36,017 nt of DNA from Candidatus Omnitrophota bacterium. GTDB taxonomy: Bacteria > Omnitrophota > Gorgyraeia > Zapsychrales > Fredricksoniimonadaceae. Shown piece by piece: positions 2,086 to 10,456 of this stretch (the stretch's first letter is position 1; the number at the start of each line of letters is the position of its first letter). The DNA lies in contig PEAF01000014.1 in NCBI GenBank assembly GCA_002753465.1, positions 1 through 36,017 of the forward strand, in the 5' to 3' direction. Below the pieces are notes generated by a model, which did not search any database, was not told the DNA's origin, and was given only the letters and a program-made list of their open reading frames with translations. A program made the translations under genes and the position numbers.

Positions 2086-3762
2086 TTAAACCCCTGCCAT
2101 CATGGCCGGCACATCTACCGCAGCAGTTGCCGTTGGCTTGATCCCGAACTTCTCCACCAGGACCTTGGTCACATTCGGTGACAGGAACGCCGGCAGGGTC
2201 GGTCCCAGACGGATATTCTTGACGCCCAGATACAAAAGGGCCAATAGGACCGTAACCGCCTTTTGCTCATACCAGGCGATATCGTACGAGATCGGTAATT
2301 TATTCACATCATCAAGGCCGAAAACTTCCTTGAGCTTGAGGGCGACAACAGCCAACGAATACGAATCATTGCACTGCCCGGCATCGAGAACGCGCGGGAT
2401 ACCGCCGATGTCACCTAAGGGCAACTTATTGTAACGGTACTTCGCACAACCTGCCGTCAGGATGACAGTATCTTTGGGAAGGGCATTAGCCACATCTGTA
2501 AAATACTGACGGTCCTTCATGCGGCCATCGCATCCGGCCATGACCACAAAACGCTTGATCGCACCGGATTTGACAGCGGCGATAACCTTATCCGCCAAAG
2601 CCAGGATCTGGTTGTGGGCGAAGCCACCGACGATCTCACCCTTCTCAAGTTCAACCGGTGACGGGCACGCCTTGGCCAGGGCAATGATCGCGGAGAAATC
2701 CTTACGCCCATTGACCGGACGCTCAGCAATATGTTTAGCCTCCGGGTAACCAGCCGCGCCGCTCGTGAACAGGCGGTTCAAATATGTACCCTTAACCGGG
2801 ATAATGCAATTGGTCGTCATCAGGATCGGGCCGTTGAATTTCTCAAAATCCTCATTCTGATGCCACCATGAACTGCCATAATTCCCGACAAGATTATCAT
2901 ACTTCTTAAACTTCGGATAATAATGAGCCGGGAGCATTTCGCTATGCGTATACACATCAACGCCCGTACCCTTGGTCTGCTCAAGCAGGTCTTCCATATC
3001 GCGCAGATCATGGCCGGAGATGAGGATGCCGGGATTCCTACGCACACCCAGATTGACCTTGGTGATCTCGGGAGAACCGTACGTCGTCGTATTAGCCTTA
3101 TCCAGGAGCGCCAGTGTGCTCACCGCGATCTCGCCCGTCTTTAACGTAAGCCCGACAAGGACGTCAGCGGAAAGATCCTTGGTCGTTGCGGCGAACGCTG
3201 TCACAACATGATCGTAGATACCCGTATCTTCATACCCTAACTCCATCGCGTGATGAGCGTAAGCACAGATCCCTTTCACGCCGTAAGTGATCAGTTCGCG
3301 CAGCGAGCGGATGTCTTCATTCACCGTTGCCAGGACGCCGACATTAACCGCCTTGGCACGTATGCTGTCGTCTGTGGTAGCTTCCCACGTAGCGCATTCC
3401 GGCAGCGCCTCGGTTTCACCGCCGCATGAACAACCGCAACCCGATCCGCAACCGCCCAGCGCCTTGACGCGCCACGCATCGCGGACCTTGATGGCTTCAC
3501 GGATATATTTGATGATCACTTTCTCGTCAAAGTTCGCATTCGTAATCGTCGTAAATATCGCCGTCGTCATGAACTTGCCGGTCGGCTTATCGATCGCAAC
3601 GCCGCTCTTGCGCGCCGCTTCCACCCATACCGCGATCCCCTTGACCACAAAGATCAAAAGGTCCTGCAACTGCGCGGTCGTATCAACCTTGCCGCAAGCG
3701 CCCTTGACCTTACAACCGACGCCGCCAGCTGTTTCCTGACACTGATAGCAAAACATACTCAT
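2086..3762 (-). CDS. hcp: Hybrid-cluster protein (hydroxylamine reductase)
   Basis: Hcp carries a hybrid Fe-S-O cluster. It reduces hydroxylamine in vitro and handles nitric oxide in the anaerobic cytoplasm. The N-terminal cysteines C5, C8, C17 and C23 (CYQC, then GCKVKGAC) follow the spacing of the [4Fe-4S]-containing anaerobe-type enzymes rather than the enterobacterial [2Fe-2S] type. All expected hybrid-cluster ligands are visible: His in SGHDL, Glu in THSEMLPAH, Cys in [21 protein letters not shown] and AGQCNDS, and Glu in WYEQKA. The length of about 558 residues is normal. The open frame reaches 3789, but AAGGAGG lies 6 bases before the ATG at 3762, so I place the start there. It is the last gene of the operon with the Rrf2 regulator and the ferredoxin-domain protein. 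Confidence 0.96.
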
Positions 3763-3781: not shown

Positions 3782-4606
3782 TTAAACAATATCGCCCTGT
3801 AACCCGATCGTATATTCTTTCATCATCACATTCTTGCCGGAACGCCGTACCGCATCTTCGACAATACTCACCACGCCGCCGCAACACGGCACTTCCATGC
3901 GCACCGCCGTTACCGAGCGCACGGTATTCTGACGAAAAATATCCGCCAGCTTCTCAACATAGCCATCAAGGTCCTCATCCAGTTTTGGACAGAAGATCAC
4001 CAGCGCCTTGCCTTTTAAAAACTTGCGGTGAAAATCACCGTAGGCGAAGGCCGCACAGTCCGCACTGACCACAATATCCGCATTCTGAAAATACGGCGCC
4101 CCGGGATTAAGAAGCTTCAACTGCACAGGCCATTGACGCAGTTCAGACGCCACCGCCCCCTGCGCTGATGCCACGGCTGCCTCTTTAGCCACACCGCGAA
4201 AATCCTTGGCCATACTGCCCGGACATCCGCACGCCATGGGTTTACCCGCGTGATCATTATTCATACCTGTTCCTTTCGTCTGTAAATACTGCTCGGCAAC
4301 TTTCACATACTCATCCTGACCATGATCTTTCAAATGTTTCAAATGCGCCGCAACGGCGGATGTGCCTTCCTTCATAATATTTTCTAAAGCTTCAACCTCA
4401 TTATATGACTTTGCTTCTCGTGTTTCGATCCTGATCGCACCCTGCGGACACTCGCCCAGACAAGCCCCTAAACCGTCACACAAAGAATCAGCCGCCAGCT
4501 TGGCTTTACCGTTAATGATCTTGATGGCGCCTTCATGGCAGGCCGGCACGCACTGCCCGCAACCATTGCACTTGTCTTCATCGATATGAATGATATTTCT
4601 TTTCAT
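3782..4606 (-). CDS. Ferredoxin-domain iron-sulfur protein of the hcp operon
   Basis: The N-terminal 60 residues form a two-cluster ferredoxin: [16 protein letters not shown], then [17 protein letters not shown] linker of about 60 residues follows, and then a domain of about 150 residues with further cysteines: [26 protein letters not shown] and VPCCGGV. Proteins of this architecture are commonly encoded next to hcp, and I infer that this one passes electrons to Hcp. The second domain may hold an extra metal centre, but its chemistry is not established here. Its ATG overlaps the Rrf2 stop codon (ATGA), which indicates translational coupling, and hcp starts 19 bases after its stop. It fills the place of the NADH-dependent Hcr reductase of enterobacteria, which is absent. 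Confidence 0.85.
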
Positions 4607-5010
4607 TTGCCGTTCCTTATAAGATCCGCCAGGGTGACCGCCTTCAAACGCGCGGTGACCATCTCTTCCATATCCTTCACCTCACGCCTTAAAGGGCATG
4701 TGGCGACACATGTGCACAATTTCTTCTTAAACAGACAATCCCCGAGTGAAATATTACCCTGAAAGACCTGCATGAGATCGATCAGCCTGATCTTCGCCGG
4801 CGGCATCACAAGTTTAAAACCACCCCTGTTGCCCTTAACAGAACTGAGATACCCTGCCTTCTGCAAGGTTTGAAGGGTCTTACGCATAAAAGGCCGCGGT
4901 AACTTCAACTCACGGTCAAGATCCGCGGTTGAAACAAGACCCTGCTCATGTGTGGCCATGTAAATGAGGGCCCGAACGGCATAATCTGTATCGCGTGAAA
5001 GTAAATTCAT
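4603..5010 (-). CDS. Rrf2-family transcriptional regulator (probable Fe-S sensor)
   Basis: About 135 residues with the typical Rrf2 layout: an N-terminal winged helix (LLSRDTDYAVRALIYMA, then LPRPFMRKTLQTLQKAGYLSSVKGNRGGF) and a C-terminal dimer helix. Four cysteines, C92, C99, C101 and C105, lie in the region that binds the Fe-S cluster in NsrR, IscR and RsrR. An NsrR-like nitric-oxide or redox sensor would suit the hcp operon it heads. The annotated frame could also start at a TTG two codons upstream, but the ATG at 5010 is preferred. No Shine-Dalgarno sequence precedes it, and the promoter lies so close that the mRNA is probably leaderless. Confidence 0.9.
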   Translation of the reverse strand: MNLLSRDTDYAVRALIYMATHEQGLVSTADLDRELKLPRPFMRKTLQTLQKAGYLSSVKGNRGGFKLVMPPAKIRLIDLMQVFQGNISLGDCLFKKKLCTCVATCPLRREVKDMEEMVTARLKAVTLADLIRNGK

Positions 5011-5013
5011 GCT

Positions 5014-5044
5014 CAAATGATACCACTAAGGTATCATTTGTCAA
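5014..5044 (-). promoter_or_regulatory. Promoter with overlapping operator of the Rrf2-hcp operon
   Basis: On the minus strand a consensus -35 box TTGACA (5044-5039) and a -10 box TATCAT (5022-5017) are separated by 16 bases. A perfect inverted repeat with 11-bp arms, CAAATGATACC and GGTATCATTTG, and a 5-base spacer occupies 5014-5040. It covers the spacer, the -10 box and the end of the -35 box. This is the geometry of a repressor operator. Autoregulation by the adjacent Rrf2 protein is the natural reading. The predicted transcription start falls on or within a base or two of the ATG at 5010. Confidence 0.75.
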
Positions 5045-5055
5045 GAAAAAATATC

Positions 5056-5077
5056 CCCGCAAGTTCTTTTCTGCGGG
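5056..5077 (-). terminator. Terminator upstream of the Rrf2 promoter
   Basis: The arms CCCGCA and TGCGGG enclose a 10-base loop. On the minus strand they are followed, after GATA, by a run of six Ts that ends directly at the Rrf2 -35 box. It would insulate the hcp operon from the polyamine operon, which ends about 190 bases upstream. The short stem and displaced T-run make it moderate. Confidence 0.55.
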
Positions 5078-5098
5078 TGACGCGCAAGCAATCCCTTA

Positions 5099-5188
5099 TC
5101 AACTGAAGTTAACGGCTTTCCTCATCCCTTCAACGGTCTGCGCTTTCTCCGATGTCATTTCTTTGTTCCAGTTCAGTGAAACCAGCAT
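5099..5188 (-). CDS. Possible 29-residue small ORF downstream of the decarboxylase
   Basis: The 190-base stretch between the decarboxylase stop and the terminator at 5056-5077 contains an ATG-started frame of 29 codons with a plausible protein-like composition: MLVSLNWNKEM at the start and GMRKAVNFS at the end, with a charged middle. The stop lies just ahead of the terminator. There is no convincing Shine-Dalgarno sequence, so this could be an unused frame or the remnant of a larger gene. I see no other structure in this stretch. Confidence 0.25.
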   Translation of the reverse strand: MLVSLNWNKEMTSEKAQTVEGMRKAVNFS

Positions 5189-5269
5189 TCATCAGATGCG
5201 CTCAGCAAGCCGTTTCGAAAGGCGATAAAGGATTGCTGAAAGCGGCAGGACCCGCAGAAAATACCGCCG

Positions 5270-6451
5270 TTATTTATTAATATGTATGATCTTCGCCGGC
5301 GGGAATCCGTTGAAATACGTCGATGAAGCATGTGAATAGGCGCCGATATTCTCGGCATACACCAGGTCATGGATATCCAGCTCAGGCAATTCAGCCGACA
5401 ACGTGATCGTATCCAGCGCATCGCACGTCGGTCCGAATACCGCCGAGACCTGCGTCTCACCTTCTTTGAAAGCCTTGACCGGATAATTACAATGATCGAA
5501 TATCTGCCCGGAGAACGTATGATAAACGCCGTCGTTGATATAGTAACAGGGCTTGCCGTCTCTCACAGCCTTGCCCACAACCTTGGCGACCACCGTGCAG
5601 GCATCAGCGACCATGAACCTGCCTGGCTCCGAAAGAATATGCATGTCTGCTGGAAATAATCTGGCAACCTCGCTGTTCAGTTTCTTGGCGAGCAACTTGA
5701 ACGCCTTGACCTTCTCATCATATTGAACAGGAAAACCGCCGCCGATATCAATGATGATCAATTTCTTATTCAGGCGCGTCTCAACTTCCTTGATGATATT
5801 CGCTGAAAGCTGCAGGGCCTGGATGTAATTATTAAAATTGGTGCACTGGCTCCCCACGTGAAAGCTGAGACCTTCCACAATAAGGTCCATGTTGAACGCT
5901 TCCTCGATCAGGTCAACGGCTTCCCCCGGCGATGCGCCGAACTTCGACGACAGCTCCACCATGGAGCCCGTGTTAGGGACCCGTATCCTTAAAACAAGGC
6001 CGGCATTGGGCGCATGTTTCTTGATCTTCTTAAGCTCTTCACTATTATCATATGTGACCAGCGGCTTGTATTTATCCAAAGCCTCGAGCGTCTCCACGGG
6101 CTTGATCGTATTAGCATAAATGATCTTGTCCCAGATCCAATCCTGTCTCTCCTGATCCGGCAGATCCTTGATATTCTCATGCACGAGCATGAATTCCGGC
6201 ATCGAAGCCACGTCAAAGCTTGCACCCATGTCATAAAGCGTTTTAATAATATCCGGATTTGAATTAGCCTTCACCGCATAGTAAGCCTGGACGCGCGGCA
6301 AATGCTCCTTGAACTCACGGTAATTCTGCCTGATCTTTTCATGATCGATAACAAACAGCGGCGTGCCATGCTCTTTGGCAAGCGCCTGCATGAGGACCTT
6401 CTCATCATCAGAAAGCGTGAACCCTGTATTTTTCCTGTTATTTCCGTTCAT
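5270..6451 (-). CDS. PLP-dependent ornithine/lysine-type decarboxylase (fold type III)
   Basis: The 393-residue protein belongs to the alanine-racemase-fold decarboxylases (Orn/DAP/Arg decarboxylase 2). The PLP lysine is K61 in YYAVKAN. Further family signatures are SFHVGSQ, IDIGGGFP, SEPGRF and GPTCDALDT; the Cys-Asp pair of the last is the active-site motif of ornithine decarboxylases. Diaminopimelate and carboxynorspermidine decarboxylases usually differ here, so an ornithine (or ornithine/lysine) decarboxylase making putrescine is the best reading. It follows homospermidine synthase by 11 bases, and that enzyme uses putrescine. Exact substrate choice among ornithine, lysine and arginine cannot be settled by eye. 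AAGGTG precedes the ATG. Confidence 0.85.
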   Translation of the reverse strand: MNGNNRKNTGFTLSDDEKVLMQALAKEHGTPLFVIDHEKIRQNYREFKEHLPRVQAYYAVKANSNPDIIKTLYDMGASFDVASMPEFMLVHENIKDLPDQERQDWIWDKIIYANTIKPVETLEALDKYKPLVTYDNSEELKKIKKHAPNAGLVLRIRVPNTGSMVELSSKFGASPGEAVDLIEEAFNMDLIVEGLSFHVGSQCTNFNNYIQALQLSANIIKEVETRLNKKLIIIDIGGGFPVQYDEKVKAFKLLAKKLNSEVARLFPADMHILSEPGRFMVADACTVVAKVVGKAVRDGKPCYYINDGVYHTFSGQIFDHCNYPVKAFKEGETQVSAVFGPTCDALDTITLSAELPELDIHDLVYAENIGAYSHASSTYFNGFPPAKIIHINK

Positions 6452-6462
6452 TCCATATCACC

Positions 6463-7908
6463 TTAGGCTATAAATGTGAAGTTCTTGAATTGCCACGGGT
6501 CCTTGTGATCAAGCTTGTTCGCCGGATTCTCTTTAAAATAGGTTTTCCTGTTCTTAAGCGGCGTCCAGTCATACGCTTTTGAAATAACCTTCCCAAGATA
6601 GGGCTTGGCGATCTTAAGCACGTAATCATGCGGCAGATCATCCGGCAGGCAAAAACCCTTCTTCGGATTTTCGATCATCCACATGGCAGCCGCGATGATG
6701 CCCAGCGCGACCTGTATCGTCGTCGCATTCTGACCCGGCGCCAATTTCCTTGCCTCTTCAATCGACAGGATACTGCCCGTCCACCAGGAATTGTAATCAT
6801 GCCCCATCAGCAAAGCGCCTAAAATATCCTCGCCTGATGTGATCTCATGGTCCTTCAAAATACGCAGGCGTGACTGCATCTCATAATTATTACCCCTAAG
6901 CTCATGCAATGACATGATCGTTTCATCGCACGGCATATAGGCGTAATGGACCGTCGGCCTGTAAATAGCCTTGCCATTCTTTCGCAGCGTCCACCTGTCA
7001 GAAATACCAAAAGCCTCGCCATGGCGAATGACCATACCGACGATCTCGTAATTCGGAACAAAGGACCTGACCCAGGTATTCATCCCCATCTGCGCCAGGA
7101 AAATCTGGTTCTGCGGGCCTTTGGGCGGACGAACAGCCAAAGCAGGCAGTGTTTTCTCATGTGTACCCCAGCCCATCTCCGCCGGAGCCGTACCCTCTTC
7201 CCGCAAGCCTTCAATGCTCCACGTCCCGACAAACTCATCGACCTGCTTAGGTCTATTCGTTACCTGAGTATCTCTTTCCGAGCAGTGAATGACCTTGATA
7301 CCGATTTCATTGCCGAGCGCCGCAAAATCCCTAGCATCGATCATTTTCTCAAGCTGCACGGGGTTCTTGGCTTTATTATCCTTGATGAGCTTATGCGCGA
7401 TATCAACAGCACCCTGCTTGGCAAAATGTGAAATAAGCCCGGGATTAGCGCCATGGTCCACCACAAAGGTCGTGGCGTCTTTCCAACCCTTGGTCATTTC
7501 CCTTAACTTCATCTGCCGGCAATATAGTGACTTCTGATACGGCGTGGCCGTAAATCTCTCGTCAAAAGAATCCCACACCTCCACCGAGGTATTCAGATAG
7601 AAAACATTATTGTCATGGCACCACTGAACGATCTCGCAGCAATCGATGTTCCAGGCCAGATCGATCAAAAGCCCGCCATTCTCCAGATGCTGTGAAAGCA
7701 CCTTGCCCATATTGGCCGGCGTGACCTTCTGTTTGAAATATTTAACACCTCTGGCCGTGAACTCTCTTAAATCCGCCGCCTTATCCTCAAAATCAATGAT
7801 CGTGATGTTCTTGGGGGACATTTTGACAAGCTTAAGTAAAATAGGCAACGTGCAGCGCGATACCGACCCGTAGCCTATGATCAAAACTTTCTTATCGAAT
7901 TCCAGCAT
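6463..7908 (-). CDS. hss: Homospermidine synthase
   Basis: At 481 residues it has the size of bacterial homospermidine synthase, an NAD-dependent enzyme of the saccharopine-dehydrogenase-like fold that condenses two putrescines to sym-homospermidine with release of ammonia. The N-terminal dinucleotide-binding site is VLIIGYGSVSRCTLPIL. Further family segments are LIDLAWNIDC, NTSVEVWD, VVDHGANPGLISHFAKQ and the long conserved C-terminal region containing GHDYNSWWTGS. The gene is preceded by GAGGTGG and lies between the HisI-like gene and the decarboxylase, so one transcript would carry both steps from ornithine to homospermidine. Homospermidine replaces spermidine as the main triamine in some bacteria. 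Confidence 0.92.
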   Translation of the reverse strand: MLEFDKKVLIIGYGSVSRCTLPILLKLVKMSPKNITIIDFEDKAADLREFTARGVKYFKQKVTPANMGKVLSQHLENGGLLIDLAWNIDCCEIVQWCHDNNVFYLNTSVEVWDSFDERFTATPYQKSLYCRQMKLREMTKGWKDATTFVVDHGANPGLISHFAKQGAVDIAHKLIKDNKAKNPVQLEKMIDARDFAALGNEIGIKVIHCSERDTQVTNRPKQVDEFVGTWSIEGLREEGTAPAEMGWGTHEKTLPALAVRPPKGPQNQIFLAQMGMNTWVRSFVPNYEIVGMVIRHGEAFGISDRWTLRKNGKAIYRPTVHYAYMPCDETIMSLHELRGNNYEMQSRLRILKDHEITSGEDILGALLMGHDYNSWWTGSILSIEEARKLAPGQNATTIQVALGIIAAAMWMIENPKKGFCLPDDLPHDYVLKIAKPYLGKVISKAYDWTPLKNRKTYFKENPANKLDHKDPWQFKNFTFIA

Positions 7909-10381: not shown

Positions 10382-10456
10382 GTCCCCTTAGCTCAACGGA
10401 TAGAGCACGAGCCTCCGAAGCTTGGGATGTGGGTTCGATTCCCCCAGGGGGCGCCA
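10382..10456 (+). tRNA. tRNA-Arg (anticodon CCG)
   Basis: A cloverleaf can be drawn by hand. The acceptor stem is GTCCCCT with AGGGGGC, the D arm is GCTC/GAGC, and the anticodon stem is CGAGC/GCTTG with loop CTCCGAA, giving anticodon CCG at 10415-10417, which reads CGG. The T loop is TTCGATT. The CCA end (10454-10456) is encoded. The T stem GTGGG/CCCCC contains one T-C mismatch at its second pair, which is unusual. The tRNA stands alone on the plus strand. Confidence 0.92.

Follow-up and report, generated by a model that had tools for sequence, protein, structure and literature searches.

The locus considered here raises the question of whether the DNA directly before a regulator gene can serve at once as promoter, operator and start of the message for a redox operon. 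Hcp, the hybrid cluster protein, reduces NO or hydroxylamine, and its gene lies behind rrf2 and ferX in the 36,017-nt stretch of Omnitrophota DNA that was analysed (the window). A 37-base stretch before and including the first codon of rrf2 appears to be the promoter, the repressor-binding site and the start codon of an Fe-S stress regulator gene; the reading considered likely is that of an NsrR-like autorepressor of rrf2-ferX-hcp, with an operator embedded in its promoter and transcription from the A of the ATG.

The rrf2-ferX-hcp operon and its neighbours

The rrf2 gene (4603..5010, minus strand) encodes a 135 aa NsrR-like Fe-S regulator identified by the Pfam Rrf2 profile (PF02082, 1.1e-31). 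It is followed by ferX (the name used here; 3782..4606, minus strand), which encodes a 274 aa protein with a 4Fe-4S ferredoxin domain recognised by Pfam and whose start overlaps the rrf2 stop (ATGA), and by hcp (2086..3762, minus strand), the product of which scores 813.8 bits against NCBIfam PRK05290 (cut-off 367). Shine-Dalgarno (SD) matches of 5 nt and 7 nt belong to ferX and hcp, respectively, with AAGGAGG upstream of the hcp start; no SD match longer than 3 nt is found upstream of the rrf2 ATG, which bears out the initial annotation in its claim that rrf2 has no ribosome-binding site.

Upstream of rrf2 is a PLP-decarboxylase gene, named nspC here. An intrinsic-terminator-like hairpin between the two genes (CCCGCA-loop-TGCGGG with a T run; 5047..5077, minus strand; fold z-score -2.84) abuts the -35 hexamer and probably ends nspC transcription. 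Its T run merges with the -35 region, and a similar layout is seen in several family members; an upstream terminator as a class-wide conserved part was rejected (40/114 vs 29% in shuffles). The minus strand of 5270-7908 holds the PLP decarboxylase (Orn/DAP/Arg decarboxylase family) and a saccharopine-dehydrogenase-like gene, a pair which we presume may represent a carboxynorspermidine-type polyamine pathway. The sole Rfam match of the window is a tRNA (10382-10453, plus strand) amid minus-strand genes and adjoining an ArsP-type permease gene.

A segment predicted to unite promoter, operator and start codon

Direct reading of the minus strand upstream of rrf2 gives TTTTTTCTTGACAAATGATACCTTAGTGGTATCATTTGAGCATG. 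The TTGACA/TATCAT promoter originally proposed before the ATG at 5010 is confirmed as a sequence match both by this reading and by a promoter scan: the -35 hexamer TTGACA (5039..5044, minus strand) is separated by a 16-nt spacer from the -10 hexamer TATCAT (5017..5022, minus strand), which is preceded by TGG as an extended -10. This is the only sigma-70-like site in 4900-5300, matching 11/12 consensus positions with a TG before the -10. Six bases (TTGAGC) lie between the -10 and the start codon (5008..5010, minus strand); counting the last -10 base as -7, +1 is the A of the ATG, and transcription is predicted to start on this A at 5010 because the 6-nt gap equals the usual distance. An alternative TTG start at 5016 is unlikely, as its position falls within the palindrome described below and N-terminal conservation sets in at ATG 5010. 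A -10-like TAnnnT about 12 bp before the start codon together with the lack of an SD has been used as the criterion for a leaderless gene (PMC3160421), and rrf2 displays both features.

The putative operator, CAAATGATACC-n5-GGTATCATTTG (5014..5040, either strand), was identified by an inverted-repeat search and by class-wide conservation. Its arms (5014-5024 and 5030-5040) are 100% complementary over 11 bp and cover the promoter core, just as had been noticed at the outset. The 36-kb window has no other perfect 11-bp inverted repeat with a loop of 3-20; since Markov-1 random windows average 0.3 such repeats, the palindrome by itself is only mildly unusual and conservation must carry the claim. 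The operator was also described at the outset as unlike the IscR site, from which it does appear to differ. That promoter, operator and start codon share one segment holds as a prediction.

Leader states among rrf2 orthologs

Orthologs of rrf2 were sought in 190 relatives, with start codons set by alignment; they occur in named Omnitrophota genomes and in a few MAGs carrying the titles of other phyla. With transcription starting 7 nt past the -10, orthologs with a short gap between -10 and start codon cannot hold an SD, whereas those with a long gap can. The gap is 5-10 nt in 47 of the 115 orthologs (36 of them at the mode of 6 or 7 nt), is never 11-12 nt, and is at least 13 nt in all others. 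SD matches of at least 5 nt are found in 0/47 short-gap genes vs 21/39 genes with gaps of 13-60 nt (p = 1e-9, a value that overstates independence, since related genes are counted as independent and four pairs are usable); at a threshold of at least 4 nt the counts are 6/47 vs 32/39. On the best protein tree, where many forks are weak, the leader state changes at least 29 times. Independent pairs on well-supported branches number only four, too few for significance, and all that differ do so in the predicted direction (3.2 vs 0 on average). The relatives appear to have kept the binding site while repeatedly changing the interval between site and gene, which supports a message starting at the first codon; the claim that rrf2 is leaderless is strongly supported by this distribution of gaps and SD matches but unproven.

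It is unlikely, though the best placed of the alternatives, that the operator and autorepression are real while the message is not leaderless, beginning at an upstream start or another promoter, with rrf2 translated by coupling or from a short leader lacking an SD. The 8-10-nt gaps of ten orthologs, which would leave a leader of 1-4 nt, fit such an arrangement; it is opposed by the single promoter-like site in the region with a terminator-like hairpin directly upstream, by the gap peak at exactly 6-7 nt, and by the SD matches found in orthologs whose leaders are long enough for one.

Operator conservation and predicted regulon

The case for the palindrome rests on conservation across the class. 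The upstream regions of the orthologs share TTGAC-AAATGATAC-n7-GTATCATTT; the pattern AAATGATAC-n7-GTATCATTT, allowing at most 2 mismatches, is found in 187/384 class genomes, while the reversed-pattern control is found in roughly 15 (counted by eye from the table). The operator is present in 65 of the 74 genomes with an Rrf2 ortholog vs 7/94 without a detected ortholog (p = 3e-28, from Fisher tests that treat related genes as independent); the exceptions are nine ortholog-bearing genomes without the site and the seven that carry it with no ortholog detected. Of 72 ortholog sites, 62 have an exact TTGACA on the flank away from the gene, in one of two registers (spacer 16 or 17), and none comes within one mismatch of it on the mirrored flank; the restriction of TTGACA to one flank implies selection for a promoter as well as for a palindrome. 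Among the 115 aligned sites the first four bases of the -10 (TATC) are present in 100%, with a near-invariant G before them; the two TG bases (alignment positions 15-16) occur in 96% and 77%, and this extended -10 TG breaks the symmetry of the palindrome. Conservation reaches 1.3-2.0 bits at most arm positions. Chance can be set aside, since the element is found again and again upstream of orthologous Rrf2 genes across Omnitrophota and tends to occur in the genomes that have the Rrf2 ortholog; on these alignments promoter and operator are to be read as one element.

Within the fetched loci, 115 rrf2 orthologs, 12 ferX and 7 hcp genes are preceded by the conserved compound element TTGAC-AAATGATACnnnnTGGTATCATT, hcp having its own operator copy in some relatives. 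Several of the other 30 sites precede Pfam-confirmed redox genes and the remainder are unassigned or chance matches; the redox genes encode AhpC/TSA, Redoxin/Tpx-like proteins, desulfoferrodoxin, DsbD, FMN reductase, rhodanese, DUF438-hemerythrin and YHS proteins, and the sites before ferX, hcp and other redox-stress genes mostly have TTGACA in register. A second operator copy often lies exactly between rrf2 and ferX (L097, L099, L101, L102, L103, L105, L115), which suggests an additional internal repressed promoter in several relatives. A genome search for the palindrome, as initially proposed, returned a single copy in the window's own draft genome (64% complete) and, in relatives, sites that point to a class-wide redox regulon; looser operator searches of the draft yielded only 3-mismatch sites with no clear meaning.

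The earlier suggestion of self-regulation is likewise upheld as a prediction, given the co-occurrence and the sites before ferX and hcp in relatives. The same co-occurrence with this Rrf2 clade, and the sites before the clade's own gene in 115 orthologs, make it very improbable that the palindrome belongs to another regulator while the neighbouring Rrf2 acts elsewhere, even with two more Rrf2 proteins in the same genome. It is barely credible that the palindrome acts within a longer transcript, as an RNA hairpin or a weak terminator, and not at the DNA level: the perfect 11-bp repeat with its 5-nt loop would fold in RNA, but against this stand the class-wide conservation of the arm sequence itself, the fixed position of the -35 relative to the palindrome, and a predicted transcription start that lies past it.

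Identity of the Rrf2 protein

The regulator belongs to the Rrf2 family (PF02082, 110.1 bits vs a cut-off of 30; TIGR00738, 100.5 vs 73.3). Plain NsrR is ruled out by the curated cut-off (NF008240, 63.9 bits vs 182), and the scores for plain IscR, RirA and CymR also fall below their cut-offs (49.9/207.55, 74.2/193 and 35.7/195, respectively). Across 18 orthologs, in the numbering of the alignment tool, D9, C92, C99 and C105 are invariant and R13 is nearly so; the E. coli NsrR row of the alignment serves as a guide only. These residues correspond to those of Streptomyces coelicolor NsrR (ScNsrR), in which Asp8, Cys93, Cys99 and Cys105 are the cluster ligands and Arg12 forms a salt bridge with the Asp (PMC5411485); the NsrR-type ligand pattern (Asp8/Arg12-type plus three Cys) is thus present. 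The best reading of this pattern is that the protein works like NsrR, though it is not classed as NsrR.

The operator differs from the published NsrR and HcpR sites (PMC1274295), as the initial annotation had stated: the NsrR consensus gATGyAT-N5-ATrCATc is matched neither by the window nor by the class consensus. Since the outer ATG of the operator is similar to an end of the NsrR half-site (gATGyAT), the operator may be a distant variant of the NsrR site. We infer that the protein senses either NO or redox changes in general; the class-wide regulon resembles one for general redox stress more than one for NO alone.

Proposed mechanism

In the proposed mechanism rrf2-ferX-hcp would be a regulator-first operon in which the -35, spacer and -10 of the sigma-70 promoter form the operator of its own Rrf2 protein. 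A cluster-loaded Rrf2 dimer would bind the palindrome and block RNA polymerase; loss or nitrosylation of the [4Fe-4S] cluster would release it, and Hcp and its ferredoxin-like partner would then be made along with more repressor. The rrf2 mRNA is predicted to begin at the A of the ATG and to be translated leaderless, presumably weakly, while ferX and hcp would be translated via their SD sites. An uncultivated phylum would gain a clearly delimited NsrR-like regulon whose consensus is searchable and testable in vitro.

Cysteine microORF leaders in relatives

At gaps above 100 nt, most leaders contain a conserved cysteine microORF (M..TI[KR][YF]MLRPVAHCKEGC) with a strong SD. It is considered coding because all six Arg and all six Leu codons are used. 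The microORF is found in 128/384 class genomes and 0 controls, and is absent from the window's family as sampled; it lies upstream of rrf2 and of other genes (L077, L174, L179, L159, L021, L178 and about 60 further loci). A 26-nt element at a fixed distance after the microORF fits an H-type pseudoknot, GUCCUGGGCAUGACGUUAAACUGCCC, which holds the stop codon; both-side changes are seen in six of the eight pairs, paired cells amount to 96.7% and 0/500 shuffles do as well, in what is a first test, the sequences having been hand-picked as distinct versions. Copies of the element are also found before hcp, desulfoferrodoxin, peroxiredoxin-like, ribonucleotide-reductase-like and cupin-like genes, names that were in part profile-checked and in part judged from sequence. 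Rfam gave nothing convincing for the element, and Pfam nothing for the peptide.

The microORF is possibly a cysteine leader peptide controlling stress genes. There is about an even chance that a fixed promoter-operator is combined across Omnitrophota with interchangeable translation modules: none, as in this window, a short SD leader, or a Cys-microORF with pseudoknot. The last would then be a new class of redox-responsive element for leader-peptide/pseudoknot control, adding a second layer to that of the Fe-S repressor and lying before hcp, peroxiredoxin-type, superoxide-reductase-type and other genes as well. The Cys microORF and pseudoknot before stress genes may accordingly represent a new type of leader control. 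The orthologs form a series that pairs one promoter over and over with leaderless, SD-led or microORF-led translation, and so allows a direct test of the rules by which initiation switches between the leaderless and the SD mode.

Comparison with known systems

NsrR, a [4Fe-4S] repressor that senses NO (PMC5411485, PMC1274295), shares with the protein described here the Rrf2 family, the Asp/three-Cys/Arg pattern and, by prediction, control of hcp; unlike the NsrR site (gATGyAT-N5-ATrCATc, PMC1274295), the window operator (AAATGATAC-n7-GTATCATTT) is promoter-embedded and its gene predicted leaderless. The regulation of hcp and frdX by HcpR is similar in that an hcp and ferredoxin-like gene pair is regulated in anaerobes; HcpR, however, belongs to the Crp/Fnr family and has the sites wTGTGAnnnnnnTCACAw, TTGACnnnnGTCAA and others (PMC1274295). 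Rv1460 SufR of Mycobacterium tuberculosis is also an Fe-S-related repressor encoded by the leaderless first gene of its operon, but differs in operon, operator and species (PMC6034842). In the open-access papers searched, no earlier description was found of Rrf2 with leaderless translation, the hybrid cluster or Omnitrophota, nor of this operator and regulon.

The closest parallel in layout is acuR-acuI-dddL of Rhodobacter sphaeroides, where it has been proven experimentally that the transcript starts exactly at the acuR AUG, and where acuR is translated far less than the downstream acuI-dddL genes (PMC3017554). Both systems are regulator-first, lack an SD for the regulator and have the -35/-10 immediately upstream, with an inverted-repeat operator overlapping the promoter and autorepression (predicted here); weak leaderless translation of rrf2 with SD-driven enzymes is the likely reading. 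AcuR differs as a TetR-family acrylate sensor with the operator TAATAGAC-n6-GTCTATTA (PMC3017554), whereas here the regulator is of the Rrf2 family, the operator is another and the start is predicted. The layout was already known from acuR-acuI-dddL; what is new in the present case is the operator together with the regulon and the naturally occurring series of leader states.
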